DNA of 26,531 nt from a virus. The notes under the pieces were generated by a model. The model made no database searches, was not told the origin of the DNA, and saw only the letters and a program-made list of their open reading frames with translations. Shown piece after piece: positions 1-15,500 of this stretch (position 1 is its first letter; the number at the start of each line of letters is the position of its first letter). The stretch spans positions 1-26,531 of IMG/VR virus record IMGVR_UViG_3300047564_004116, one strand, 5' to 3'. A program made the position numbers and the translations under genes.

Positions 1-196
1 GCTCAGTGCTTGGATCTTGATCTAAACGTGCAAGGAACTTACTTTTTGGTCCGTAAGCAAGTGCTACTTTTTCTTGACGAATGATTGCTCCTGTATCTGG
101 ATCTTTTCTTTCAATTTGAATATTATTAAAAATTGTTCCAAATGCTTTTACATTCTTTTTGATAATTTCGTGATAAAAATGTGAATTGCCTAACAT
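1..196 (-). CDS. gp15: Tail sheath terminator/stabiliser gp15, N-terminal part (cut by window edge)
   Basis: Only the first 65 codons are in the window; the gene continues beyond base 1. The protein starts MLGNSHFYHEIIKKNVKAFG and continues with a GTIFNNIQIERKD stretch. This matches the start of T4 gp15 (MFGYFYNSS... then DLFSNIQIKR), including the FxNIQI core and the later residues leading to a K-x-K/F segment. In T4, gp15 caps the tail tube and sheath as a hexamer and joins the tail to the gp13/gp14 neck. The ATG lies at 196-194 and shares one base with the TAA stop of gene 14 (TAATG), so translation is probably coupled. A good Shine-Dalgarno GGAGGA lies at 211-206, nine bases upstream. Gene order 13-14-15 supports the call. 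The fold assignment comes from remembered family similarity, not a search. Confidence 0.85.
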   Translation of the reverse strand, partial: MLGNSHFYHEIIKKNVKAFGTIFNNIQIERKDPDTGAIIRQEKVALAYGPKSKFLARLDQDPSTE

Positions 197-1098
197 TAGA
201 ATGAATCCTCCATATCTCCATATTCACCAAATGGATTTGTTTCTGTGAAATCTAGTATCTCGTCTGCTGTTTCTTCAAAAATTTTATTTTGTGCATTATC
301 ATAATTATCAATATCAAAATCAATTGTAGAGAATGTATCCACTATCCACTCAGCACCACTATCTTCTCCTATTATAGGATTGTTCGGTGATAATACTCCA
401 TTTATATATGTCAATCTCAACTTGCGTGTAGCAGGATCCCAGTCTGCAACAGTAGCAGTTACAGTAACAGGATCGCCATCAACATTATAAGTTTGTTCTA
501 CAATCTCTCCTGGTTCATAAACACCAGAACCACCTGTCTTCATGTATACTGGGAAGACATGAGATTCCTGAGTGAGATCATCAATGAGAGGATCTCCCGT
601 ATTAAAGTAGTTGTCTGCGTTCTCAATGAGTTCGCAAGTCAATGAAAAAATATAGTTTTTTCCTAACTGATAAAATGGAACTTCCCTTTCAACAAACTTA
701 ATCTCGTATAGATTTTTTGTCATTGGAACATAAAGAAGATCACCTTCGTTTGGTCTGTTGGGAACTCTTGTGTCAATCTCTGTCTCTACGTAGTTGATCC
801 ATCTTCTTTTGGATACAGCATATGTAATCTCATCGCTTAGTCTTAGACCAAACTTAGACATCGCCACGGCACCAGAACCACCAAATCCCTCAACATTAAT
901 AAGCATCATTTCGATGGTTACCTTGTCTTCAAACTTTGAAAGAATTACATCGTTTAAAGTCTTATCAATTAACATTGTTTTTGGAACATACATCACATCC
1001 TGCCCAAACAGTTTGATCTGCTCGTCAACAAGATCTTGAACTAATGTTTGTTCTGCTGTGTTTCCGCCATACTGGGGAAAGTATTGACTCTTTGCCAT
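196..1098 (-). CDS. gp14: Neck protein gp14 (T4-like)
   Basis: This 300-residue protein begins MAKSQYFPQYGGNTAEQTLV and contains DLVDEQIKLFGQDVMYVPKT. These are hallmarks of the gp14 neck family in T4-like phages, which are about 256 residues in T4 and somewhat longer in cyanophages. With gp13 it forms the neck that closes the packaged head and gives the tail a docking site. Visible segments are the N-terminal GQDVMYVP strand (about 33-40), a glycine-rich EGFGGSGAVAMSKFG loop (about 70-84), and RVPNRPNEGDLLYVP (about 111-125). The acidic C-terminus ends FGEYGDMEDSF. The ATG at 1098 overlaps the gene 13 TAA by one base and the stop overlaps the gene 15 ATG in the same way, so 13-14-15 is one translational block. 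The middle (about 165-255) has a beta-rich insert that T4 gp14 may lack. Confidence 0.9.
   Translation of the reverse strand: MAKSQYFPQYGGNTAEQTLVQDLVDEQIKLFGQDVMYVPKTMLIDKTLNDVILSKFEDKVTIEMMLINVEGFGGSGAVAMSKFGLRLSDEITYAVSKRRWINYVETEIDTRVPNRPNEGDLLYVPMTKNLYEIKFVEREVPFYQLGKNYIFSLTCELIENADNYFNTGDPLIDDLTQESHVFPVYMKTGGSGVYEPGEIVEQTYNVDGDPVTVTATVADWDPATRKLRLTYINGVLSPNNPIIGEDSGAEWIVDTFSTIDFDIDNYDNAQNKIFEETADEILDFTETNPFGEYGDMEDSF
206..211 (-). promoter_or_regulatory. Ribosome binding site of gene 15
   Basis: GGAGGA on the minus strand, nine bases before the ATG at 196. It lies inside the last codons of gene 14 and supports the TAATG start for gene 15. It is the strongest Shine-Dalgarno sequence I saw in the window. 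Confidence 0.7.
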
Positions 1099-1910
1099 TA
1101 TCCGATTACATCAAGTGGTGGTAGTTCGTAATCAGAAATCATCTTATCTTCGATCTCTGCAATCTCTCTGAGAGCATCCTCATAGATCTGGCGACCGTTG
1201 AGTGATACACCGCCAGGTAGTTGAACGTTATTAAACTTGATGAGGTTCTGCCCCCACTGACGCTTGAATAACGCCGTAGTATAACGCTTCAACCAGAAGT
1301 CATTCCAGATCTTCGTGAGATTTGTGGGATCAAGTGCTCTGTAGCAATCGATAATAAGAATCTTATCTTTTGTTAGCATCGCAGGATCATAGTCAATATA
1401 GAGTTTACCGTTACGCTTGGTGAACCTATACTGAATCAATGAACCAGTATTCAGAACCATATCGAGCGTTTCGATATACTGTTTGACCATATAGTAGTTT
1501 AGAATGTCAATTGATCCAAACGCATAAAGGTCGTTGAGGAAGATCTGATATTCAATACCAAACAAGTCACCACGAATGCTGCTTGACGTAACACCAAAAA
1601 TTCTTTCGATGCCAATAATATAATCTGGTAATTCTAAATAATTTCCTCTTTCTGTCCACGTATCGCCATTAGGTGCAGTGTGAGTAATGTTATTAGATTT
1701 GAAACGAGTTACCTCTGTTTGTGTCAGAGTATGTTTCAGATACATTCTCTCAGCACCGTCGAAATGACGCTCTTGGAAGAACTGCAGAGCTTCATCGATA
1801 CGGTCTTCTAACTGCTGACTATCTACGTTGATTTCTAAAACTGGTGCGCCCAACTCTCGGAGGCAGTATTGCTTTAACTCCTCTCTGGTTGCTGGCTTTG
1901 ATGCTGACAT
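1098..1910 (-). CDS. gp13: Neck protein gp13 (T4-like)
   Basis: This 270-residue protein starts MSASKPATREELKQYCLREL and then runs GAPVLEINVDSQQLEDRIDEALQFFQERH. This is the characteristic N-terminus of cyanophage/T4 gp13, a helix followed by INVDxxQLEDRIDEAL. It continues with the YLELPDYIIGIERIFG and LKRYTTALFKRQWGQNLIKF segments typical of the family. T4 gp13 is about 309 residues, so this is a compact version. It acts as the head-completion/connector protein at the portal side of the neck and works with gp14. The start at 1910 has an AGGG Shine-Dalgarno-like sequence at 1920-1917, six bases upstream. Upstream are a hairpin (1928-1956) and a late promoter box (1966-1973), so this is probably the first gene of the 13-14-15 transcript. 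Identification rests on motif memory and gene order. Confidence 0.9.
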   Translation of the reverse strand: MSASKPATREELKQYCLRELGAPVLEINVDSQQLEDRIDEALQFFQERHFDGAERMYLKHTLTQTEVTRFKSNNITHTAPNGDTWTERGNYLELPDYIIGIERIFGVTSSSIRGDLFGIEYQIFLNDLYAFGSIDILNYYMVKQYIETLDMVLNTGSLIQYRFTKRNGKLYIDYDPAMLTKDKILIIDCYRALDPTNLTKIWNDFWLKRYTTALFKRQWGQNLIKFNNVQLPGGVSLNGRQIYEDALREIAEIEDKMISDYELPPLDVIG

Positions 1911-1973: not shown

Positions 1974-2168
1974 TCACTCAGCAGGTGCTTCTTCTGCTGG
2001 TGCTTCTTCTGCCGCTGGTGGATTTAGAATAGCCAAAGTCTCTAAACCACCTTGCAGTTTAATTTTATACTCTTTTGCTTTAGCAAGATTTGCTTCTAAT
2101 TCAGCAATTTGCTTTTCTGCAGATGCTAGTTGATCTTCAAAATTTTTCTTCAGTTCTTCAGTGTTCAT
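1974..2168 (-). CDS. Small coiled-coil protein with Pro/Ala/Glu tail, unknown function
   Basis: This 64-residue protein is not one I can name. Residues 1-45 are strongly helical and charged with heptad-like spacing (EDQLASAEKQIAELEANLAK), suggesting a short coiled coil that could oligomerise. Residues 50-64 form a flexible acidic tail with a repeated EEAPA unit (NPPAAEEAPAEEAPAE); the DNA shows a 15-base repeat there. There is no signal peptide or membrane segment. The gene has its own exact late promoter box (2198-2205) and is followed by a strong terminator, so it can be made alone as a short late mRNA. Its place next to neck genes suggests a small virion or assembly protein, but that is inference. 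Consistent reading frame, promoter and start make it a credible gene despite its size. Confidence 0.75.
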   Translation of the reverse strand: MNTEELKKNFEDQLASAEKQIAELEANLAKAKEYKIKLQGGLETLAILNPPAAEEAPAEEAPAE

Positions 2169-2196: not shown

Positions 2197-2859
2197 TTAT
2201 TTATACGTTAAAAAATGAACCATACTATGACGGATATCACTAATCCATCTCTTTCCTACTTTAGCAGCATGATATACATCTCCATCATAGATTACTAATC
2301 TATTTGGTTTTGCTTGTATAACGTCAACCAAAGTGTCATTAGGAATCCATGGGCTTTGTTTAGAATATAACGAAGGTTTTGCATATATTCCAGTTCCATC
2401 TTCTTCATCATATTCTTCATTCATATACCATAAACAAGCTACAATATTTTCTCCATCACTATGGGGAGAATAACCATTATTTTTGTTGTTATCATAACAT
2501 GTTTGATTCCAAGTAAAAATGTTATTACCTAGATTAAGTGTTTGTTCAGTTAAATTTTTTACATTATATACTTTTTCTATGATATCTTTTACAACATCGT
2601 GAAATAAAACAGTTTTATGAAAATAGAAATAAGATCTACCATCAAAATAATCTTGACCATTTTCTTTAACATCATACATTCCATGTAATCTTGTGCATGG
2701 CATAGTAAGTGCTATTTCATGAATTTTTTTAAAATTTACAAAAAAATTATCTACCTCTATGTAATTTCCCCACGAAGGTGTTTTTACATTGATGTGAATA
2801 TTTTTGTTGACATCAAATAGAGAATCTTCTATTAATATAGGTAAATTTTTCATTTCCAT
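2197..2859 (-). CDS. 2-oxoglutarate/Fe(II) dioxygenase-like protein (fourth of four)
   Basis: This 220-residue protein has a double-stranded beta-helix dioxygenase signature. The iron-binding H133-x-D135 lies in YSPHSDGEN and a distal H197 in VIYDGDVYHAAKV. R204 or R210 follows as a candidate to bind the 2-oxoglutarate carboxylate. The layout (PHxD, LWYMN strand, GTGIY, DGDVYHAA) resembles DUF6445-type oxygenases more than the prolyl hydroxylases next door. The substrate is unknown. The N-terminal 60 residues lack obvious motifs. It overlaps the preceding oxygenase gene by 10 bases from the first ATG (2859), which has an AAGGA five bases upstream. An in-frame ATG two codons later would give an ATGA overlap. 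The C-terminal codons contain the late promoter of the next gene. The iron ligands look intact, so an active enzyme is plausible. Confidence 0.75.
   Translation of the reverse strand: MEMKNLPILIEDSLFDVNKNIHINVKTPSWGNYIEVDNFFVNFKKIHEIALTMPCTRLHGMYDVKENGQDYFDGRSYFYFHKTVLFHDVVKDIIEKVYNVKNLTEQTLNLGNNIFTWNQTCYDNNKNNGYSPHSDGENIVACLWYMNEEYDEEDGTGIYAKPSLYSKQSPWIPNDTLVDVIQAKPNRLVIYDGDVYHAAKVGKRWISDIRHSMVHFLTYK
2198..2205 (-). promoter_or_regulatory. T4-type late promoter box for the 64-residue gene
   Basis: An exact TATAAATA on the minus strand (2205 to 2198) is formed by the last codons and TAA stop of the preceding oxygenase gene (...TAT AAA TAA). The ATG of the 64-residue gene (2168) is 30 bases downstream of the box, the usual distance for a late gene leader. 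Confidence 0.75.
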
Positions 2860-3443
2860 CTAGGTCCTTCAATCCATCCAACTATAGATTTTCTTTTTCC
2901 TTTTTTGATTTTTTTTACTCTATGTTTTATTCTGCTATCAAATATAATTAATGTTCCTCTTTCTTTTGGAGCAAAAAACATACTGTTTTGTTCAACATCC
3001 AAAAACTGCAAATCTCCTCCTTCGTATTCTGATGGATCTGATAATTGTAGGGAGAACGATAATTTCCTTTGTTTTCCAGTGGGAGAAATAACAGATCCAT
3101 CTACATGCCAATTATAATATTCTCCTTCTTCATATGAAGTATATTGCAAACAGTTATCTTGAAAAGATGTTATATCATAATTAAAATTTTCTTCATTAGA
3201 TTTCATTATATAAAAATGAATGAAAGCAGCAACCCAATGATTATCATCAAAAAAACAAATTTTATTTTTTCGTATTTTTTCATTTAATACGTTATCAGAT
3301 CCAACTGTTCCGTATCTTAATGAATCTTCTGAAATATACTTATTCAAATCATTTTCTATAGAATTACAAAATTCTTCTGGTAATTTGGTAAAATGCCAAA
3401 CGCACTCATATTTTTGAGTTATTGTGTTTAATTTTAAAGTCAT
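2850..3443 (-). CDS. 2-oxoglutarate/Fe(II) dioxygenase, PKHD/prolyl-4-hydroxylase type (third of four)
   Basis: This 197-residue protein has all landmarks of the 2OG-Fe(II) oxygenase superfamily. The first iron ligands are H113-x-D115 in YYNWHVDGS, then SFSLQLSDPSEYEGGDLQF. The distal H174 is in FDSRIKHRVKKI and a basic residue (R184, in GKRKSIVGW) is placed to bind 2-oxoglutarate. The H-R-V-x-x-(8)-R-x-S-(3)-W-(2)-G-P ending is typical of PKHD-type hydroxylases (YbiX/PiuC relatives) and of many cyanophage oxygenases. It probably hydroxylates a protein or small molecule in the infected cell; the substrate cannot be read from sequence. The gene overlaps its upstream neighbour by four bases (ATGA at 3443-3440) and the next gene by ten, so the three are translated together. 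The DNA is notably AT-rich, with many lysine and asparagine codons. Confidence 0.85.
   Translation of the reverse strand: MTLKLNTITQKYECVWHFTKLPEEFCNSIENDLNKYISEDSLRYGTVGSDNVLNEKIRKNKICFFDDNHWVAAFIHFYIMKSNEENFNYDITSFQDNCLQYTSYEEGEYYNWHVDGSVISPTGKQRKLSFSLQLSDPSEYEGGDLQFLDVEQNSMFFAPKERGTLIIFDSRIKHRVKKIKKGKRKSIVGWIEGPRWK
2865..2869 (-). promoter_or_regulatory. Ribosome binding site deciding the start of the fourth oxygenase
   Basis: AAGGA on the minus strand (2869-2865), five bases before the ATG at 2859. The spacing favours this ATG over the one at 2853. Confidence 0.55.
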
Positions 3444-4024
3444 AATAATTTCAAATTTTGTTTATTTTTTTCATACCATTTTTCTGAGATATCGGAAGAA
3501 GATTGAAATGCCATCGTAATTCTTCCCTTGCACCTTATAAATTGTGAAGGTGCTCTACTTCCATGATGTATATATGATGGAGATATTACTACTCTTCCTG
3601 GTTTTGGTAAAATAGATGTTGCATAAATGTAATCTTTTTCTGCTGAAAAATATGTTTCTCCCGACCAATGATTATGCCATTCTTTATTACAGTAAAGTAA
3701 AAAAGTAACTCCATGCATATCTGGATCGTCTACATGCATATCACAAAAATCATTTATACCAAAACAATTAGTTATAACTCTATTAAATTTTGGTAATTTT
3801 AAATTCAATCGATCTTCAATTTTATTTAAAATATTTTTTTGATGATCATCAAAATTTTCTAGTAAATCTGTAGCAGCAAATGTGTATATTCGTTGAGAAG
3901 CATCTCCACAAATAGAATAGTTATTTTTATTTTCTGCGTAATTTTGTATATCAGATACTTCTTTGTGCGAAAAAATATTATCTATAATGTGAATATCATC
4001 ATCTACATTAGTATATGTAATCAT
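3440..4024 (-). CDS. 2-oxoglutarate/Fe(II) dioxygenase-like protein (second of four)
   Basis: I place the start at ATG 4024 (MITYTNVDDDIHIIDNIFSH), giving 194 residues. The longer frame back to 4063 begins with TTG and would overlap the preceding gene by 38 bases. In the 194-residue numbering, the iron ligands are H97-x-D99 in CDMHVDDPD and H153 or H154 in SPSYIHHGSR. A basic residue (R164 or R168) follows as a candidate 2-oxoglutarate contact. The segment PKPGRVVISPSYIHHG is the usual strand leading to the distal histidine. The N-terminal IHIIDNIFSHKEVSDI resembles the helix that opens prolyl-4-hydroxylase-like domains. The ATG lies one base after the TAA of the first oxygenase and the gene overlaps the next by four bases. 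Substrate unknown. Confidence 0.78.
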   Translation of the reverse strand: MITYTNVDDDIHIIDNIFSHKEVSDIQNYAENKNNYSICGDASQRIYTFAATDLLENFDDHQKNILNKIEDRLNLKLPKFNRVITNCFGINDFCDMHVDDPDMHGVTFLLYCNKEWHNHWSGETYFSAEKDYIYATSILPKPGRVVISPSYIHHGSRAPSQFIRCKGRITMAFQSSSDISEKWYEKNKQNLKLL

Positions 4025-4025
4025 A

Positions 4026-4661
4026 TTAATCTTGTGGTTGCGTGCAGAACCATCCAGTAACAACGTACTTGTTTTGCGAGAATACTATATTTCCCCTATG
4101 AACATGTGTATATGCAGCTGGCCATAATACCACTGTTCCTGCTTTTGGTGTTATTCTCAATTTTTGGTAATAAAATTCAGTCTCTGCTTCTCCCTCGGGC
4201 ATATCATTTAAATATATCATCCAAACTACTTGACGATGATCAACACCCCATTGACATCTTTCGTCATGCCAAACATGATATCCTCCGCCAGGAGGAGTTT
4301 TTTGCATCTTTAAATCATACGTAGCAATTTTTGCATCTGTTAGAGTTGGATATTCTCTCACATATTCGTTAAATGTTGACTGCAAAACAGAATATAACTC
4401 TCCAGCAAATCTACCATCTAGTAAATTTAAGAAAATAGATTCATCTAACCTACCCAATCTCATTTTACTGAATTGTTCAGTTCCATCAGAATAAGCACCT
4501 TCTCTTAAAATTTGTTGTGCTTCTGTCAAAGGTTCTTCTGGATTTTCTGATGTAAAGATAGATTTTGATGAAATAAGTTCTTCAAAATAATCAATTAATT
4601 TATCACAAAATTCTCTATCAACATAGTCTTCAAAAATTCCTATATGTTCAATCAGTTTCAT
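4026..4661 (-). CDS. 2-oxoglutarate/Fe(II) dioxygenase (2OG-FeII_Oxy type; first of four)
   Basis: This 211-residue protein belongs to the family often seen in marine T4-like phages. It starts with an IEHIGIFEDYVDREFCDKLI helix. The iron site is H132-x-E134 in GGGYHVWHDERC, with Glu in place of the more common Asp. It is followed by RQVVWMIYLNDMPEGEAETEF and TPKAGTVVLWPAAYTHVHRG, holding the distal H186 (or H188). K198 or nearby basic residues before VVTGWF would hold 2-oxoglutarate. It may hydroxylate proline or another side chain; the substrate is unknown. It is the first gene after the adhesin (27-base gap) and has its own late promoter-like box at 4690-4683, so it may lead an oxygenase operon. 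No strong Shine-Dalgarno is visible. Confidence 0.88.
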   Translation of the reverse strand: MKLIEHIGIFEDYVDREFCDKLIDYFEELISSKSIFTSENPEEPLTEAQQILREGAYSDGTEQFSKMRLGRLDESIFLNLLDGRFAGELYSVLQSTFNEYVREYPTLTDAKIATYDLKMQKTPPGGGYHVWHDERCQWGVDHRQVVWMIYLNDMPEGEAETEFYYQKLRITPKAGTVVLWPAAYTHVHRGNIVFSQNKYVVTGWFCTQPQD

Positions 4662-4682
4662 ATTTTTTATGCTTTGTAATAT

Positions 4683-4690
4683 TATTTATC
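4683..4690 (-). promoter_or_regulatory. Late promoter box for the oxygenase cluster
   Basis: GATAAATA on the minus strand (4690 to 4683) overlaps the TGA stop of the adhesin gene. It matches the late box at seven of eight positions and differs only at the first base. The oxygenase ATG (4661) is 22 bases downstream of the box. It would let the four oxygenases be expressed with the virion genes. Confidence 0.55.
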
Positions 4691-6212
4691 ATGCAGTAGT
4701 TGATCCAGATGTAGTTCCGTTAAATGAGAGAGTATAATTAATGTTAGTTGTATTTGATCTTTTTATTGCTGCTCCAGCATTACCAGAAGCAGCAGTTCCC
4801 CAATCTCCACCACTTCCACCGCTGTTTCCATCTTGACCTGTTTGCCCCGCAGTTCCAGCATTACCTCTTCCGCCAGATTGACCTGTTTGCCCTGTTTGCC
4901 CTGCAGTTCCAGCATTACCTCTTCCTCCAGCTGCTCCAGTTCCTCCAGTAGCAGTAAATGTTTGGTTTCTAGCAACTCTTACGCAGTTTGCTGAGTTGTT
5001 ATTTCTTCTTCCACCGACTCTATAATTAATATTTAAGTTTCTACTTTCTGTTTGACCAGCTGCACCATTTTGACTTGGCCAAGTATTTGGAGCAGCACCG
5101 CCAGGGTTGCCAGCTTGCCCAGGTTGCCCAGCAGACCCTGGCCAAGTATTTGGAGCAGCACCGCCAGGGTTGCCAGCACCACCAGCACCACCAGCATTAC
5201 CTGTTAAAACGCCAATTAAATATCCATAACCTCTACCTCTTCCTCCATTCCCTCCAGCGCCTCCAGCACCGCCTTGACCAGCAGCTCCTCCAGGACCACC
5301 GACGCCACCAGAACCACCAGGACCACCTTGACCAGCAGCTCCTCCAGGACCACCGACGCCACCAGGACCACCGACGCCACGAACAGTTCCAATATTTCTG
5401 TTTCTATTTGCAATTCCTCGGGCATTTGCATTACCAATTGGAGTATTGGCAGCACAGTTTCGGTTCCATGTTTCATCTCCTTGCCCAAACCACGTAACAT
5501 TGTTAGTTGCTCCAGCTCCTCCAGCAGTTCCTGTTTGACCTGCCTGCCCTTGACCCCCAGCACCTCCAGGTTGACCAGCAATTCCTGTTTGACCTGCTTG
5601 ACCTTGACCTCCAGCTTGCCCAGGATTACCGCCTGCACCACCGCCGCCACCTCCCCTTATTTCTCCAGCAGTTCCTTCTACAGTAACTCCATTCTGAGAT
5701 ATTAAAATAGCATTTCCACCAGGATTCCCTGCTCCGCCAGGGGTTGCTCCACCAGTTCCCCCCTGACCATATATTTTACCATTAGAAGACAATGATACTT
5801 TTAATTTTCCAGAAAGATTTGAATTAACTGTTAGTGCTGCATTTGCCGTGGATGTTGCACCACAAGTTCCAGTAACTTCAAATTTTTTGGGAATTACTTT
5901 ACCGAAATTACTATTCCATTGAGTTGTAAAAGAATCTACACTTACATCTTCATTAGTATCTGATTGTGTTAAAACAATCTCTTTTACAGTATCTCTATAC
6001 TTACTAAATGCTAGATTTGAGTCTGATGTAGGAACATTAGCATTTTCAGTAGCATCATAAATGTATGGTGCCGATGTTGTATCTGTTGTTTTTCTTTTAA
6101 ATTCACTAAGAGATACTGCTCCAGTATTTCCTCTGAATGTATCTCTCAGTTGAGATAAACTAATCGATACATTTCCACTAAAGTATTTGGTAGTGTTATT
6201 ATTTACTGCCAT
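4689..6212 (-). CDS. Glycine-rich collagen-like tip adhesin (gp38-type candidate receptor-binding protein)
   Basis: This 507-residue protein has three parts. Residues 1-75 form an attachment-type N-terminus (SISLSQLRDTFRG, then VSLSEFKRKT). Residues 76-145 form a beta-rich segment. From about 148 the protein is dominated by glycine every third residue (such as GGQGQAGQTGIAGQPGGAGG), interrupted by unique segments at about 235-275, 328-340, 352-380 and 388-420. Glycine-rich motifs separated by variable loops are the layout of the polyglycine-II sandwich adhesins (gp38) at the fibre tip of T2/S16-like phages, where the loops bind receptor. It starts one base after the giant fibre gene, the same fibre-then-adhesin order as T2/S16 genes 37-38. 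Long in-frame repeats suggest expansion by recombination. Collagen-like virion protein is the alternative name; the role is inferred. Confidence 0.75.
   Translation of the reverse strand: MAVNNNTTKYFSGNVSISLSQLRDTFRGNTGAVSLSEFKRKTTDTTSAPYIYDATENANVPTSDSNLAFSKYRDTVKEIVLTQSDTNEDVSVDSFTTQWNSNFGKVIPKKFEVTGTCGATSTANAALTVNSNLSGKLKVSLSSNGKIYGQGGTGGATPGGAGNPGGNAILISQNGVTVEGTAGEIRGGGGGGAGGNPGQAGGQGQAGQTGIAGQPGGAGGQGQAGQTGTAGGAGATNNVTWFGQGDETWNRNCAANTPIGNANARGIANRNRNIGTVRGVGGPGGVGGPGGAAGQGGPGGSGGVGGPGGAAGQGGAGGAGGNGGRGRGYGYLIGVLTGNAGGAGGAGNPGGAAPNTWPGSAGQPGQAGNPGGAAPNTWPSQNGAAGQTESRNLNINYRVGGRRNNNSANCVRVARNQTFTATGGTGAAGGRGNAGTAGQTGQTGQSGGRGNAGTAGQTGQDGNSGGSGGDWGTAASGNAGAAIKRSNTTNINYTLSFNGTTSGSTTA
4849..4926 (-). 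repeat. In-frame direct repeat in adhesin gene (54-base spacing)
   Basis: The sequence GCAGTTCCAGCATTACCTC (plus strand) and its flanks occur at about 4849 and again at 4903, 54 bases (18 codons) apart. They encode repeated GGRGNAGTAGQTGQ units. Confidence 0.75.
5077..5177 (-). repeat. 38-base perfect direct repeat in adhesin gene
   Basis: Bases 5077-5114 and 5140-5177 are identical (38 bases, 63-base spacing, 21 codons). Each encodes AGNPGGAAPNTWP. The repeat carries a non-glycine-rich NTWP element, so a candidate surface loop has been duplicated. Confidence 0.85.
5272..5365 (-). repeat. 40-base perfect direct repeat in adhesin gene
   Basis: Bases 5272-5311 and 5326-5365 are identical with a 54-base (18-codon) spacing. 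They encode repeated GGVGGPGGAAGQGG units. The spacing is a multiple of three, so the frame and the Gly-every-third pattern are kept. Confidence 0.85.
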
Positions 6213-6213
6213 A

Positions 6214-6507
6214 TTACTTACTTGCCTTTAGAGTTTCTACTTCTTGTTTTAATTCTTTAATAGCTTCGATAAGTAGAGGAATCAAACGTTCATATTGAAC
6301 TGCTAGGTAACCATTATCTCTTTCAACAACGACCTCTGGCAATACCTCAAGAATTTCTTGAGCAATTACACCAGATTCTCTCTTTGTTTGATCTTTATCT
6401 TCCGCTTTCTCATTCCAATTATAGGTTACACCAGAGATCTTACCAACTTTATTTAGAGCATTTTCAATTGGTTCGATATTAGTTTTTAATCTATTATCTG
6501 ACGATGA
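6214..6507 (-). other. Peptidase S74 intramolecular chaperone domain (C-terminus of giant fibre)
   Basis: The last ~97 residues hold SDNRLKTNI, then SGVTYNWNEKAED, GVIAQEILEVLPEVV, YLAVQYERLIPLLIEAIKEL and a terminal heptad helix. This is the standard S74 arrangement. In known members (endosialidase type) the serine of SDxRLK, helped by the lysine five residues on, cleaves the chaperone off the folded trimer. Here the cut would fall just before S3286. Confidence 0.85.
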
Positions 6508-9500
6508 GAATGCTGTAATATCACCGCCAGCGGTAATAGCACCATTACAATTAAATGCTCCTCCTGTTCCGATCCAAGCAACATCAGTAGTTCCAGCTCT
6601 AAATCTTACAACTTCAGCACCACTTGATCCTACATTTACATACCAACGGTTGCTATGATATTGAATGAGACCTTCAGATGCACCAACTGATCCTAAGGTA
6701 GCATTAGATGTTTGACGTAATGATGCAGCATCACCAAGACGAACAATAGAATGTGTTGCACTTTCAAACTTAAATTGAGCAGAAGCAGCTAAAGCACCAT
6801 TGTTATTATACTGAATTTCTTGATTGCTTCCTCCAATTGGGAAAGCGGTCCATTCGGGAGCAGTTGATCCTTGCTTGAGGAAATAACCTGCAGTTCCTGC
6901 AGCCAAGAACGAAGTGGAATCAGTTCCACTCTGGTATACCAAATTATTAGAAGCACCGCCAGCAATATTTGTTGCTTTAGTTGCAGTTGAAGCATTTCCA
7001 GATAATGTAGCAGTGATAGTTCCTGCTGAGAAGTTACCACTTGCATCTCTGGCTACCAAGTTAGTATTACCACTTGTGGAAGCAATTACGTTGATAGTTC
7101 TTGCTGCACCACCATTAAATGATTGAGTTCCAGATCCATCACCAAACTGTAAATATGTTCCAACTGATAGAGAGTTTGGAGTATTTGATGTGATAGTTAT
7201 GTTTGCAGAACCATCAAAAGATGTTCCATTGATTAGTCTTGCAGTTTGAAGTTTCGTTGCAGTTGAAGCATTACCACTTAATGCAGCAGTGATAGTTCCA
7301 GCAGCAAAGTCTCCATTACTATCTCTCTTAACAAGAGTATTTGCTGTATTTGTGGTTGCTGGTAGGTTGTTTCCAGTATGTAGAATAGTATACTTAGTGG
7401 AAGATCCAACACTCCAACCACCCCAGAAGAGATCATTAGTTGAACCATCTAATCCAAAGTAACCAGCATAGTCACCAGAAACATGGAAGGTTAGATAAGC
7501 ATCAGCACCGCCAGTTTCATTAAGAATAGTTAGATTTCTGTTACCAGTTCCAGTTGCCAGTGAATTTGCTGATGTATTAATTACAATACCATTTCCTGCT
7601 GAGAATGTCAGGTTGCCTGACATAGTATCTCCAGACTTCAATACGTTTAGAGAAGCAGCACCTGTTAGAGAAGCAGTGATAGTTCCTGCCGAGAAGTCTC
7701 CATTTGAATCTCTCTGAACTGCTGTGCTTGCTGTATTTGCAGAAGCAAACTGAATATTGCCAGAGTTCCAAATAGTGCTATTGTTTATTGTTACTGCATT
7801 GGCATTATTTGCGACAATATTTAAAAGACCACTACCTTCTGTTCCTGTTCCGCCAGATGCTTCTAACTTAACGTTAAAAGTTGCTGGAGAAGAAGCAGAA
7901 TTAAAATAAATTGCTGGGCTAGATGCAGTTCCATCAGTTCTTCCCAATTTGAGAAGAGGTTTAGAAGCAAAATTACCCAATTCTGCAACAGTATACGTAG
8001 AATTGCTTATAATATCTGTGATATTATAATCAGCAATAAACACATTATTTGATGGTGTTCCAATCTTGGCAGCACTATTAAAACTTCCTGCAGTTAATCT
8101 TCCAGTTAAAATAGTATAATCTAAAGCATCATCCAAACTGTTATTAGTAACAATTGATGTAATTACAAATTCACCTACTTCAATACCAGAGGTATCATAT
8201 AAATTAATGGTTGCATTTTCTACATAGGGAGCTTCTGAAAGAACTTGTCCAGTAACATATACATCATAGAAAACTTGACCAACAAAAGAAGAAACTTTTA
8301 GAGTATTATTAAATCCAGTTGATCTTAGATACGTCGCAATATGACTAGAACCTATATTTCCTTTGTTGATGTTAAATGCATTTTGATAGAAAACACCTTG
8401 CCTTCCGTCTAATTTGTCAGCATCCAATCCACTATCAGCACCTTGGTTGATTGAAGACCATAGTTTTGCCCAAGTGCTAAATGCACCAGTAACGCCAGAA
8501 CCAGATCCACGAATCCAAAGATTGTTATTATCAGTGAAAGCAAGTTGTCTTACACCACCACCAGAAGAATCAGATCCAGTTCCAAATTGTCTGTAAGTGA
8601 TTACACCGTGCTTTGTTCCTCCATCGGATAATCCATCTGCAGTATTGTTTCTGGTATCTGCTGTGATACCTTCGTTGAAAGTAGATGGCGAAGGAGATGA
8701 TGATGCGTTTCCTACGCTAGTTGTTAATCTTAAAGTATTACCCGACTGACCAGAAATGTCAATACCATAAGTTCCGCTAGCAAGTTTGTCTGGAGTGATT
8801 GATAGGTTAGCAAAGTTTTGACCATTTAGGTAGTAGTTGCCTTGCTGACCATCTAGTAAGTCAGCATCCAATCCACTATCAGCACCAGTCTTTAGTTTGA
8901 CTGAACCGTTGCCCGCTAGACCAATTTCAAATTGTGATTTGAAGAATCTAGCAACACCAACATTACCAAATTCTTGAGCAGCAAGCGTCTTGTCGTCTAC
9001 ACGTAAAATGTCAACCCCAACATTAGAGAAGTTTTTAACAGTAGTATTTACTTTTGCTTCTAAAACTCCACCTGTTCCAGGACCAACTGCAGCAGGAATT
9101 GAAGTGATTGAAAAGTCACTGGTATAACCAGTTCCACCACTTGTTACAATTACTTCTTGAAGTTGACCACTTGATACTACAATATTTCCTTTCAATCCAG
9201 TTCCAACACCACCAGTTAGAGCAACATCATAATAAGTTCCATCTGTATATCCTGTTCCTCTACCAGAAACATATACTGTATCAATGAAACCAGAAAGAGT
9301 AAATGTAGAACTAATAACAACAGGAGAAGCTGGTCTTACAAATTCTATTAAAGTATCTATAGGTATGATTTGAGTAATAGCAGTAGATAATGTTATTACT
9401 GTTTTTCCTTCTTGAACAAATGTATTTTGAACAGTAGTATCTGCTGGAATACCATCTGCTACTACAACATGACCTAATAGTATAGCAGAATTTAGTGGAA

Positions 9501-12500
9501 CTTGTATAATATTTTGATTTGCAGCAGCTTGATCGGCAGTATAAGCAAAATATCTATTTTCGGATGCCTTGATGGATTGAACAGCAGGAGCAAAAGTAGA
9601 ATCACCTCGTAAGAAAGTAGTTGAGTTTGCACTTCCACTGCTGCCTAGAAGGTTCGGAGAAATAGTTCCAGGACCAGTTAAGTTTGTTACTGGAGTTGTG
9701 GTTGATGAAAGAGATACCCAGTTATTTGGATCACTTGCTGAAGTATTTACTGTTCTTATTACTGCAACATTATTTGTTGGAGTAGCATAATCAGAAATAT
9801 TGTCAGTATCTGTAATTTTAATATTATTAACAATATTTGTGTAAACTCTAGATTCAATCAGAGCAGTTGCTTCTGCTTGTGTTCCACCAGCTCCAGGAGC
9901 AGAAATTGTTACAGTGGGAGCAGAAGTATAACCTTTACCACCAACAAGATTATCATATTCAACGATTGTTATAGCGACTAATTTGCTATTTGCAATAGTT
10001 GCCGACGCAGCAACAGTAACTCCACCTGCTTGTTGAGGAGCACTGAAACTAACTGATGGTGGATTTTGAGCATCATAACCATCACCTTGATCAGTAATAC
10101 TAATTTGATATACAACACCAAATCTATATTCTGTAATTTCACCTTGACCTGTAGAAATACTACCAGCAACTAATTCTCCAACTGGGAAATCATAATCTTC
10201 ATTTACAGTAATACCTAAAAATTGACTATCTAAATCATTATTTAAGATAAATGATTGTGAAGTGTCTTGTTGAATTGCAATGTCTCCAGCAAGAGGTCCT
10301 TCTAGAGCAAGTCTAGCATCTTCATCGGCAATAGTATAAACACTAAATGGTCTTAATGCTGGAATTTGATCAAGAGAAATCTTACCAGAGTCTGTTAATT
10401 CTACAAGGTTTCTTGGAACAGCATTGGTTGAATATGGTTTATTAATATATTGACCAAGGTTGTTTGAGATATAATCTTTAACTGCTTTTTGTGTAGGAAT
10501 CTTGCTATCTGTCGAGAAGTTTCCTCCTAAAGTATTAGAAGCATCAAATCCCGTAACAACAACATCTCCACCTTTTAGTTTGAGGAATTCAACTTCCGAG
10601 ATAGAAACCGTTCCAGTAAATGTAATATTACCAGTTCTGTTCTCAATCTTAGCGAAGTAACCTACTTTAAAGTCACCAAGTTCGTCAGTTCCTGAAGTGT
10701 ATACTCTACCATATGCTTGAGATACCTGCTCTAGTGCTTCGTTTTTAACTCCACCATTTTCAGGTAGAGCATTGTAATCATTTCCAGAACCAGCATATTC
10801 CCAAGTATGCGATGAAGAGTTAACAATAGATGGTCTGTGTAAACGAATCTGCTTACCGACTAGTTCTGCGTTGTTTACAACTACTGGTTGACCATCTGAT
10901 TTTCTTTGAATCAAGATAGCGTCATTTAAATCGATAGTAGAAGTAATGTCAGTAGCACCAGCAGAAGTCTGTCTTACATTTTCAACAAAGTATTCAATTT
11001 CGGAATCTTGATTTTCATAATCAGCAAACTTAACAATATAGTGCTCGAGAGGTTCTCTGCCAAGACCACCAACTGTAAATACAGTTCTACCTGTAGCAGT
11101 GGTAGTTACGTTAGAAATTGTTCCAATATCAAAGACATATGGATCTTTTCTGAATCCTCTTGCTCTTAAAGCATAAGTTCCAAAGTTTGTAGCTGAGTTG
11201 GTAATGGAAGCATAACCACCAGTATCAGCATAAACACCATCTTGAGCGAATAGAACGAATACCGAAACTAACTGAGTATAACCATCATTTACAATTTTGT
11301 ATCCAATTCCCCCAAAAGAAATAATGGTAAACTGAGCAGCAACCATCGACTTACCCTGATTTGGATAAGTTGCTTTAGGAGCATTGTTACCAACAGCTGG
11401 ATTTAATCCTGGTCTTGGGCAGTTTGGTTGACGGATCTTATCACCATCAATTTCACAACCACCACCACCAAGGAATGAAATTACAGAAGCGTTTTGGATG
11501 TAAGGAGATGCTTCGATGAATGGAAGATCTGCCCAGATAGACTCAATAGTTATTCTCTTATTGTCGGCATCATAAATTGTGTTTTCTGGATAAGTTACCG
11601 TTGGTTCGTATAAAGTTCCATATGTTTTTGTTTGAGTTGATCCGTCAGCAAGAATACTATCTAAAATACCAAATGAAGTTGTAATTGCTGATGCAACGTT
11701 AGCACAAGTTGGAGTTGAAGTATCTTCAATTACTGTAGGATCAATAAACTGAATAGTTGTTGCATATTCTGGAACATAATCTGGTTGAGAATACGCACCA
11801 TTTCCAGTATTCCAATTTCTCATAGCAAGGATTGCTAAATCTCTTGCTTTTACGAATGCTTCTCTTGTTGGAGTTAATTCATTTGATGGAATACCAGTTA
11901 AAGCAGTTCCAGTATAATATGATTCGCCAGCAGTTACTATTCCAGCGTTACCGCCGAGAATTAAATCTCTTCTTAAAGCTCCTAGGATATAACCAATATC
12001 TCTACGGCATTTAATTGAAGTGGTAGTTAAGAAATCACCTGTATTTTCAGTTGGTAGTGAATTTAAATTGCCAGCAGAAATTGCAGTTGTGATAACACTA
12101 ATTAATGTAGAAATACTAGTCTGAACATCTGTGCAAGAAAGTTCATTTGTATTGTTTGTAGTAACCCCTTCTGTTCCGTATGGAGGTGGGGTGTTTCCTG
12201 GATCTGGATCTCCAGTGATTGTGAGATCTTTAGAGTAGAGCTGGTTAGTAACAGCTCTCTTCATGATATCTCTTGCTTTATTGAAAGCAGTTACAGACTG
12301 AGACGTTTCTCCAACTAAACCATTTGATAGTGGAGTAGTATTCGCTAAGAAATATCTCTTTGTAGCTCTAATGATATTAACATTACTTCCATCATACAAG
12401 TCTGAAGCAACCGCATCTACAATATAACCAATATCACGCTTACACTTTGCTTCGCCAGCAGGAACAGTTCCTGTTGTTTCTGCTGGCAGACCTGTTAAGT

Positions 12501-15500
12501 TACCAGCAGTAATTCTATCAGTGATTAAAGTTGTTAGACTTGATACTGCACTTTGAACATCTGTGCAAGAAGCAGCATTTCCAGATGGAAGAACAGCAAT
12601 ATTACCACCACCACCACCATAAGTAGCAGGACCAGCACTGATTGTTAAATCTTTAGTGTATAGTTGATTGGTGAGAGCTTTGTTCATCATGTCTCTCGCC
12701 ATATTGAAGGCAGTTACACTCTGAGCTTCTTCTCCGACCAAACCATTGGAAATTGGTGTAGTTGCATTAACAAAATACTGCTGAATAAATTTACGAGAAT
12801 ATCTGTTTCCTCCTCCCTGAACAATATCTAGAGAAACAGCATCAATGAAATGACCAATATCACGCTTACACTTTGCTTCGCCAGCAGGATCAGTTCCTGT
12901 TGTTTCTGCGGGAAGACCTGTTAAGTTGCCAGCAGTAATTCTTGCAGTAATAATAGCAGTTAAGGTATCGATTGCTGATTGTACATCTGCACAAGATGAA
13001 GTGCTTGTATTGGAACCAGTAGCAGGATCTGCAGTAATAGTTAAATCTTTAACTCCTAGTTGATTTGTAATTGCTTTCTTCATCTCATCACGAGCTGAAT
13101 TAAAAGCTAAATTAGATTGAATTTCTTCACCTTGCAATCCATTTGAAATCCAAGCAGTTCCTGCTTGATTGAAATATTGTTGAATAAATTTGCGTGAATA
13201 TCTATTTCCTGCACCTTGAGCGATATCTAGAGAAACCGCATCAATAAAATATCCAATGTCTCGCTTACACTTTTCTCCATTAGTATCCCCAGGGATTGAA
13301 CCGCCAGATGCAGCATAAGCAGTATCAATAATTGCTGCTCTGTTTAATTGAATTAAACGATATGAATCCTTGAATCTAGAAATACTAGTTGTTTGGGCAT
13401 CTCCAGGATAATAAAAATCAGGATGCTGAACAGCAATTTCAGCAGCTGCTCTATCGATAATTTCTTGTCTATTAAGTTGAATTAAGCGATAAGAATCTTT
13501 ATATCTCGATGTATTAGTAGTCTGAGCGTCTCCAGGATAATAAAAATCAGGATGCTGAATTGCAATTTCTGCTGCAGCTCTATCAATAATTTCTTGTCTA
13601 TTATTTCTAATCAAATTGGTAGAATCTTTATATCTAGCAGCAGATGCATTTTCACTCAAGAAAAGTTCTGGATATTGATCTTCAATATATCTTGAAGTTT
13701 CTTGGATAATAAAATCTTGATTTCGAGCAATCAAATATCCAGCTTCAACATAACGATCTATTTGATTGTTGGTAATAATAGCAATGAATAAATCAGTAAG
13801 AGTATTAATTGCTGCCTCAACATTAGCACAATATGGCCAAGATGAATCTATAGTTACATCTGGATCAAAAAATCTATCAATAGTTGAGAATTGAGGGTTG
13901 TATAAATCTCCTGCTTGATTAATTCTCCAACCTCTCATAGCAAGAACTGCTAGATCTCTAGCAATATCAAACGCTCTAACAGTCTCCGATAATTCAGTTG
14001 CAATATATCCAATACCAGTTCCAATAACATAATATTTTGCTGCTTCTACGGTGTGATAGTTCCCACCATATTCCATATCTCTAATGATAGCATTGACAAA
14101 ATGCCCAATGTCTCTACGGCATTTTGATTCACTAGGATTAATAAAATGAGTAAACTCAGCAATAATTTGTTTATATGTTTCGTCTTTAATAAACTCTAAA
14201 TTGTTTCTAATTAAATTACGAGCATCTTGATACCTTCTAGAAACATATGGAGTTTCTTCAAATTTATTTGGTGAGTTTAATAACGAAAGAGTAACATAAT
14301 GCGATACTGCGGAAGCAGTAGCGTCTACTATAATATTAGAATCTGTTAAACTTGGTAAATTATCTTTCGGAATAACAAATCTTCTAGATCTGCTATCATC
14401 ATCAATTGGAACACCAGTTTTATCTAAATCATAAATTCTTTGATATCCATTCAAGAACGATAAATCTGGGTCTCCTGGAACAGATCCATCTGGCATTCCA
14501 GATATAAAAATTTCCATTCCTTCATGGAAATCGTGAATATTATCTATTCCTACTAGTTCATTTGTATATAAAATGAGACCACCATAAGTTGCCTGTTGTG
14601 AAGCATCAACTCTTATAATAGGAACAGTAGTAGTTACATCAGTTCCATGCTCTACTACTTCTCCTTCTGGTCTAATTGATATCAGTGTCGTGGCAGTAAA
14701 TTGAAACTCTTGTGCCCAATCAGTTCCATTCCATATGTAAGTAACACCATCAGTAGGGTGAGTATAAGGATCTCCAATAGAAGGAGATGATGGCCATCCA
14801 GTATATTCTACAGGTGCTTCGATATAATATCTTACTGTTTCTCCTTTAGCAAAGTTTCCTGATACGATATCAAAATCTACAGTTCCCTTTTGGTATGCTT
14901 GTGGTCCGGTTGTTGATGTATAATTAACAGCAATTACAGTTCCAATTGCTGTGCTGTTTACACCGATAATTGTTTCTCCAATAGAAAGCGATGATAATCC
15001 TGTATTAAAGTCAAAATCTGCTCTGAATTTATTCTTTCCAAAAATTTGGTGACCAACTGGGAATCTTCTTTTGAAGTCTCCGCCAGTAGTAGAGTCATAA
15101 TAAATTCTTTGTTTATCATCAAATACACAAGCAAACTGCCATGTTGATAGTGGATTTCCTTGAGAATCTAATTTATCTCTAAATGTGAGACCAGAAATAT
15201 AGTTTTTATCGGCAAACTTAAACATGTGTTTGCCAGGATTGTTTGGTCTAACCAAAACAATACGCAACGAGTCACCTACAACAGCACAATCTGGTGGAAT
15301 TGAAATTGGATTATCTTCCGTATAATCTCCACCAGCAACTATAACGGTTTCTTTTACGTTCCTAGATTCAGTTGCAATTTGGCAACCACGCTTAATAGTT
15401 CTTACTGGAGAAGCGGGTGATCTACCGTCATTTTCATCATCACCAATTTGTTGAGAAACATAAACACGACCACCAACGTCATTTGTTGCTAAGTTTAGAA

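Follow-up and report, generated by a model that had tools for sequence, protein, structure and literature searches.

We analyzed a 26,531-base virus record (IMGVR_UViG_3300047564_004116; its whole length is referred to below as the window), which we judge by gene content to belong to a T4-like cyanophage and in which a gene for a glycine-rich tail-tip adhesin is followed by four genes for 2-oxoglutarate (2OG) oxygenases, oxy1 to oxy4. All genes named at this locus lie on the minus strand, in the order gp37-like fiber, adhesin, oxy1, oxy2, oxy3, oxy4, a protein of 64 amino acids (aa), and the neck genes gp13 and gp14. The fiber gene (6214..16356) encodes a gp37-like long tail fiber of 3380 aa with a C-terminal Peptidase_S74 chaperone domain (PF13884, E 3.4e-18; phrog_5342, tail fiber), and a single base separates it from the gene for the 507-aa Gly-rich adhesin (4689..6212). 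After a gap of 27 bases come oxy1 (4026..4661), oxy2 (3440..4024), oxy3 (2850..3443), and oxy4 (2197..2859), and these four genes overlap one another. The open reading frame listed for oxy2 (3440-4063) has a TTG start that falls within oxy1, and the internal ATG at 4024 is the likelier start. This layout, an adhesin gene and four consecutive oxygenase genes with a 27-base gap, had been placed correctly by a first-pass annotation made from the sequence alone.

Predicted fold of the tip adhesin

The adhesin gene stands directly behind an S74 gp37-like fiber gene, as gp38 does in Salmonella phage S16, and its product matches phrog_2056 ("tail fiber protein; host specificity", E 1.3e-7). We modeled the adhesin with AlphaFold2 from a 16-row alignment, which gave a mean predicted local distance difference test score (pLDDT) of 60.9; block values were 64 to 94 at aa 1-210, 65 to 84 at aa 311-340, and 68 to 82 at aa 451-500. 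The N-terminal part and beta-helix (aa 1-188; 5649..6212) scored 67 to 94 in blocks of ten. In a Foldseek search of PDB with this model, the top three rows were gp38 of coliphage PP01 and of S16. VIA-align gave a Z score of 17.8 for S16 gp38 (6f45_D; 220 residues aligned, root mean square deviation 5.9) and 16.6 for PP01 gp38 (183 residues aligned, root mean square deviation 3.0), the next row being at 6.6. The model contains a predicted beta-helix and a polyglycine-II sandwich, and variable loops lie between its glycine-rich motifs. The same two elements, together with variable receptor loops, are described for solved gp38 structures of T2-like phages (PMC12892980).

Searches with the sequence itself returned only chance matches among PDB sequences, nothing convincing in BLASTP against S16 gp38, and, in tblastn against 50,697 phage records with the low-complexity filter on, matches in S-SRM01 only (two records). 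The kinship of the adhesin to gp38 is one of predicted fold, PHROG match, and gene order. The window adhesin is larger than gp38 (507 versus 249 aa) and has G-x-y runs of 16 triplets, whereas those of S16 gp38 have at most 4; besides, the gene after gp38 encodes a holin in S16, whereas four oxygenases follow here.

Three length-matched G-x-y arms

Long G-x-y runs had also been noted in the first-pass annotation, and they proved to be three uninterrupted runs (arms) of exactly 16 triplets each: arm 1 (aa 189-236; 5505..5648), arm 2 (aa 279-326; 5235..5378), and arm 3 (aa 423-470; 4803..4946). A loop that is variable in the alignment (aa 237-278; 5379..5504) lies between arms 1 and 2, and a second variable stretch (aa 374-422; 4947..5093) precedes arm 3, both with pLDDT values below 50. 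When the Gly-rich part (35% Gly) was shuffled, the longest run averaged 5.2 triplets, and 16 was reached in 1 of 20,000 shuffles.

Arm triplets were counted from core motifs (a GGGGG stretch, G[RQ]GY, and GG[DEN]W) as Gly at every third residue, in the best of three registers and with one exception permitted; 4 of 29 unique adhesins were dropped for want of a core motif, and adhesin-type frames of at least 700 aa (L155 and L156) were excluded. The arms were 16/16/16 in the window adhesin, with no exception used, and 19/19/19 in all seven other scored adhesins that stand beside the same oxygenase cassette, where arm 1 needed the permitted exception in every case and arm 2 needed it in L047. Among the 17 scored adhesins from non-cassette loci, 16 had arms of 5-7/4-6/4-10. 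These equal lengths, which change together, suggest that the strands are packed side by side. Besides, the order of the core motifs would have arm 1 run outward and arms 2 and 3 return, a topology better suited to an antiparallel polyglycine-II stalk than to collagen. We infer that the stalk is formed by arms within one chain, as an extension of the gp38 sandwich. Polyglycine-II rises 3.1 Å per residue, which gives a computed stalk length of about 15 nm in the window and 18 nm in the relatives.

We determined arm composition in 333 triplets from six representative cassette adhesins. Asn occupied 37% and Pro 4% of the X positions, Pro occupied 13% of the Y positions (43 Pro at Y and 14 at X), and neither Lys nor Glu was present. 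The absence of Lys excludes lysyl hydroxylation of the arms, which the first-pass annotation had brought into play and which we have dropped as a candidate. Its description of the protein as collagen-like found weak backing in the profile search, where Pfam Collagen reached 14.9 bits (E 0.024) against a cut-off of 27.2, and Pro is as scarce as stated above; the analogy with collagen thus gave way to a gp38-type adhesin whose arms do not have the composition of collagen.

The four oxygenases

PF13640 was found above its cut-off in oxy1 (E 8.1e-10), oxy2 (E 1.7e-6), and oxy3 (E 2.1e-16). In oxy4 it remained below the cut-off (23.1 versus 27 bits) and DUF6445 passed (24.9 versus 24 bits), while H-x-D...H...R was kept. 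The metal and 2OG ligands, assigned in all four enzymes by motif rather than by structure, were invariant in 12 of 12 aligned sequences of oxy1 and in 6 of 6 each of oxy2, oxy3, and oxy4. They read H-x-D...H...R in oxy2 (H97, D99, H154, and R168), oxy3 (H113, D115, H174, and R184), and oxy4 (H133, D135, H197, and R210), and H-x-E...H...K in oxy1 (H132, E134, H186/H188, and K198), where, by motif, Glu takes the Asp position. H-x-D is the motif of prolyl 4-hydroxylases (P4Hs).

The oxy1 model (pLDDT 76) has the double-stranded beta-helix fold of P4H/PHD-type enzymes, and fold comparison singled out none of PHD2 (Z 13.8), the Pseudomonas putida P4H (Z 13.7), and vCPH of the chlorovirus PBCV-1 (Z 12.7). 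Its best PDB sequence match (profile E 4.4e-5) was that vCPH (5c5t, titled a viral collagen prolyl hydroxylase), which was also the top Foldseek row. Thus, oxy1 is like vCPH and the bacterial P4Hs in sequence match and Foldseek rank but differs from them in having H-x-E instead of H-x-D, in an identity of 17 to 20%, and in sitting in a phage fiber operon beside three other oxygenases. The nearest PDB entries of oxy3 were PKHD/PiuC-type hydroxylases (3dkq, E 1e-7), which are not known as collagen enzymes, and that of oxy2 was a putative hydroxylase (E 6.4e-6). No solved relative of oxy4 was found in PDB (best E 0.79), nor any tblastn match among the 50,697 phage records. Of the claim that at least two of the four are of prolyl-hydroxylase type, the part concerning oxy1 stands, while oxy3 belongs instead nearest to the PKHD/PiuC type. 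The ratio of nonsynonymous to synonymous substitution rates was 0.01 to 0.19 for the four enzymes in three contig pairs (L044-L046, L049-L050, and L050-L135, the last two being nearly one comparison), indicating purifying selection on all four.

PHROG labels on the 2OG-oxygenase-like proteins at 2197-4661, namely "DNA endonuclease V" (phrog_274), "ferrochelatase" (phrog_3531), and "minor coat protein" (phrog_1644), look like mislabels.

Linkage of the oxygenases to the adhesin

We scanned IMG/VR for the adhesin and the oxygenases with short patterns; these scans are not exhaustive, and the adhesin scan missed the cassette contig L044. The cassette was present at nine of the best 80 of 179 oxy1 relatives (L043 to L051), of which L043 is the window's own phage, and the adhesin scan added one further cassette contig (L135). 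L001 is the window's phage as well (99.98% over 11,098 bases) and was not counted as independent. Nine further contigs thus carry the module with its genes in this order. Seven of these (L044, L046, L047, L048, L050, L051, and L135) show the full order from fiber through adhesin and oxy1 to oxy4 to the neck, and the other two contigs end within oxy4 (L045) or within the adhesin (L049). The oxy1 proteins of the other cassettes are 48 to 52% identical to that of the window and make up, by our own grouping, about five lineages; L050 and L051 may be one phage.

All 10 loci in the oxy2 scan and all 10 in the oxy4 scan, the window's phage included, lay in cassette contigs, and oxy4 was found in this module only. 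Among the matches listed for oxy3, 8 of 10 loci were outside the cassette and most cassette contigs were missing; four of these eight stand directly behind tail-like genes (by eye), two of them near a fiber with 87 to 98 G-x-y triplets. In the latter two loci (L194:1-7271 and L195), a fiber with a run of 98 (L195, 87) triplets and, by eye, an S74-like end is followed by a 271-aa protein rich in Gly, a relative of oxy3, and a gene that PHROGs labels ferrochelatase; this is a truer collagen-like fiber with an oxygenase than that of the window.

PF13640 matched 24 times in seven cassette records, every time inside the cassette; these records total 508,812 bases, the longest has 190 kb, and one is the window's phage. 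A neck-anchored survey covered 41 loci, 28 of them with at least 2.5 kb upstream of gp13. With relatives counted at 60 bits or more, the adhesin and the four oxygenases were all present in 1 of the 28 (the window's own phage) and all absent in the other 27. The slot region in 8 of those 27 holds relatives of the 2OG-FeII_Oxy_5 genes of L005, and 2 also have tryptophan halogenases. In the same slot of L039 (2110-5236), two genes for tryptophan halogenases (PF04820, E 1.4e-109 and 1.2e-97) lie side by side among 2OG-FeII_Oxy_5-type genes. Synonymous differences were fewer in the cassette than in gp13 in three pairs (L044-L047, L048-L050, and L050-L135) and more in L044-L046, which is only a hint of independent mobility of the module.

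The recurrence in nine other contigs, the oxy2 and oxy4 scans, the joint absence from 27 of 28 loci, and the invariant active sites together support a genetic tie between the enzymes and the tip adhesin, and we regard this linkage, as judged from sequence, as strong.

Distribution of oxy1 relatives and related adhesins

The upstream gene, taken as the longest frame of at least 150 aa ending there, was scored in 75 of the 80 oxy1 loci; it lay at most 34 bases away or overlapped oxy1 in 74 of them, with L078 as the exception at 132 bases. Cassettes make up nine of the 75 loci, and in 65 of the other 66 the upstream protein shares the tail [KR]-Y-x-I-[KR]-A-[YF] (read from the listing). Proteins with this tail are mostly annotated as fiber or structural proteins in isolates. 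From 386 phage records with an oxy1 match, we inspected ten isolates, chosen nonrandomly, and seven (ACG-2014i, Sf-CH1b, S-RSM4, S-PM2, S-H9-2, S-H9-1, and Syn1) had the oxy1 relative behind a fiber or structural tail gene; S-H9-2 was placed by its PF13640 match and gene order, and the upstream gene of ACG-2014i is a hypothetical one with the shared tail. The slot between fiber and gp13 in S-RSM4 contains eight genes with PF13640 or PF13759 matches, flanked on either side by a Gly-rich protein. Relatives of oxy1 include S-PM2p225, a member of T4-LIKE GC 240, which the available text of PMC2984593 lists among conserved cyanophage genes.

Of 31 non-cassette loci with a related adhesin, 10, among them that of S-SRM01, have a flavin (tryptophan) halogenase gene directly upstream of it; several of the ten are close relatives. 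This arrangement suggests more than one arrival of oxidative enzymes beside this adhesin. Other related adhesins have 2OG, JmjC-like, or DUF6445 genes nearby or no such gene that we noticed. Related adhesins accompanied by a halogenase, or by no enzyme of this kind that we noticed, are part of the pattern that the first-pass annotation had named as refuting its reading. In S-SRM01 (L123:10445-13026), where the halogenase gene is directly upstream of the gp38-like adhesin gene, the adhesin has a Trp/Tyr/Cys-rich insert.

Interpretation of the locus

We interpret the locus, with moderate confidence, as a tail-tip tailoring cassette of a T4-like cyanophage, whose oxygenases would hydroxylate the fiber tip after translation. 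Four intact oxygenases have remained with the tip gene in long-diverged phages, which points to chemical modification of the tip by the virus itself, and the linkage makes the tip adhesin, or the fiber end under it, the simplest choice of substrate; the adhesin is probably hydroxylated by the cassette. The three arms would prolong the polyglycine-II sandwich of gp38 as an antiparallel stalk, about 15 to 18 nm long, with the variable receptor loops on it. X-P-G is the canonical P4H site, and the P4H-like oxy1 would be the first candidate for Pro at Y of the G-N-P units; Asn, abundant at X, would be the second candidate residue, and oxy2 to oxy4 might act on Asn or on other residues of the arms, loops, or fiber end. 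Hydroxylation could order water around the side-chain-poor stalk or alter receptor contact, and the outcome might be a stiffer or better protected stalk or a finely adjusted contact. A wider proposal, in which exchangeable sets of 2OG oxygenases, DUF6445 proteins, JmjC-like proteins, and flavin halogenases oxidatively modify the neighboring adhesin in cyanophages and their relatives, here allowing or decorating long polyglycine-II arms, is possible but tentative.

Several observations weigh against tip tailoring. The arms are largely of low confidence in the model (pLDDT below 50 at aa 216-303 and 351-445), and the cassette adhesins look like one clade, so the association of arms and oxygenases may be one event. 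The non-cassette adhesin L140 has arms of 14/14/6, with arms 1 and 2 as one run, and no oxygenases were found in the available 2.5 kb downstream or 1.4 kb upstream of it. Many loci outside the cassette have proteins weakly similar to oxy2 (tens of bits), and many have ones weakly similar to oxy3; the cassette records G001 and G005 carry a Trp halogenase and a weak 2OG-FeII_Oxy_5 match far from the cassette. Three of the ten inspected isolates (S-SSM5, P-RSM4, and S-CAM8) have the oxy1 relative away from fiber genes, beside CP12/cpeT or DNA-replication genes. Furthermore, a Gly run of at least 5 triplets was present in only 21 of the 75 proteins encoded upstream of oxy1, nine of them cassette adhesins. 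The other 54 have no such run, so that oxygenases without a Gly-rich adhesin, named beforehand as a refuting pattern, are in part what was found. Taken with the fiber-type tails in 65 of 66 loci, this implies that oxy1 is coupled to fiber-type genes generally and not to Gly-rich tips. The idea that halogenase-linked adhesins are Trp-rich was rejected as not clean: the tip region has 7 Trp in 9 of 11 halogenase-labeled loci (one of them with only a piece of the halogenase), 2 in the remaining two, and 5 in five loci without this link.

It seems rather unlikely to us that the oxygenases act on host substrates, such as a cell-surface glycan or protein, small metabolites, or 2OG or oxygen status, and that the fiber operon is simply a late, gene-rich insertion slot. 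Cyanophage 2OG oxygenases are indeed generally classed as auxiliary metabolic genes in the available text of two papers (PMC10452541 and PMC10436341), being present in 76 of 153 genomes in the former and having the highest copy number among such genes in one genome in the latter. The three isolates with oxy1 relatives beside CP12/cpeT or replication genes, and the other cargo in the same slot of near relatives, also suit a host substrate. However, the adhesin and the four enzymes are all-or-none in the neck-anchored loci, the oxy2 and oxy4 scans give cassette contigs only, PF13640 is confined to the cassette in cassette records, and oxy1 lies directly behind a fiber-type gene in 74 of 75 loci, all of which speak against a host substrate.

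The oxygenase-fold proteins might also be assembly factors (chaperones) of the fiber tip, with catalysis secondary. The invariance of the metal and 2OG ligands in all four enzymes makes this improbable, although oxy1 occupies the position of fiber chaperones in T4-like phages and a Phage_tail_APC gene follows the oxy1 relative in S-RSM4. We give similarly little credence to a collagen mechanism, in which the G-x-y runs would trimerize into a triple helix stabilized by prolyl 4-hydroxylation. It would account for unbroken runs of 16 triplets here and of 19, with at most one exception, in the relatives, for G-N-P units with Pro mainly at Y, and for the resemblance of oxy1 to a viral collagen P4H. 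Nevertheless, the gp38 fold is the predicted one, the conserved core motifs, which open arm 1 and close arms 2 and 3, would make the arms antiparallel within one chain, the Pro content differs from that of the collagens tabulated in PMC3368898, and the Pfam Collagen match is below its cut-off; we therefore rejected the triple helix as the leading explanation on grounds of fold, composition, and arm topology.

Tip tailoring would have a parallel in Mimivirus, which is said to hydroxylate its own collagen and likewise encodes both a repeat protein and a hydroxylase (available text of PMC8968730). The window differs in that it comes from a bacteriophage, its arms lack Lys, its adhesin has a predicted gp38 fold and not a collagen fold, and its genes lie side by side. 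The same text describes a Bacillus anthracis P4H as active on synthetic peptides, whereas those collagen-like proteins that E. coli prophages encode lack prolyl hydroxylation according to PMC3368898. At the level of titles and abstract openings, we found no link between a phage fiber and a 2OG oxygenase in the literature. The 2OG oxygenases and tryptophan halogenases of cyanomyoviruses, which carry annotations as auxiliary metabolic genes, belong to the same superfamilies, but the cassette differs from these in being a fixed four-gene set tied to one adhesin type, with an oxy4 that has no tblastn match in the 50,697 phage records. 2OG oxygenases are among the commonest unexplained cyanophage genes. 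If those adjacent to fiber genes modify the virion tip, the question of their substrate becomes testable by ordinary proteomics of cultured isolates, and phage adhesins would be added to the list of known hydroxylated proteins.

Other features of the window

The slot is closed by the 64-aa protein (1974..2168; phrog_580) and followed by two backbone genes, for a gp13-like neck protein (head-tail adaptor Ad2; 1098..1910; phrog_211, E 2.5e-47) and a gp14-like neck protein (Hc2; 196..1098; PF11649, E 9.3e-20), the latter serving as the scan anchor. An oxygenase-specific late promoter is unsupported, as ATAAATA precedes oxy1 in only 2 of 8 cassettes; in the window this motif is rarer than chance (5 versus 14.35 expected). 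A terminator-like hairpin (1928-1956) lies between the 64-aa gene and gp13, and a similar one was seen by eye at the same place in other cassettes. The fiber gene also has a 129-base tandem repeat (13323-13635), where aa 903-950 match the phycobilisome profile of Pfam (E 3e-8); this match may be chance or mimicry.

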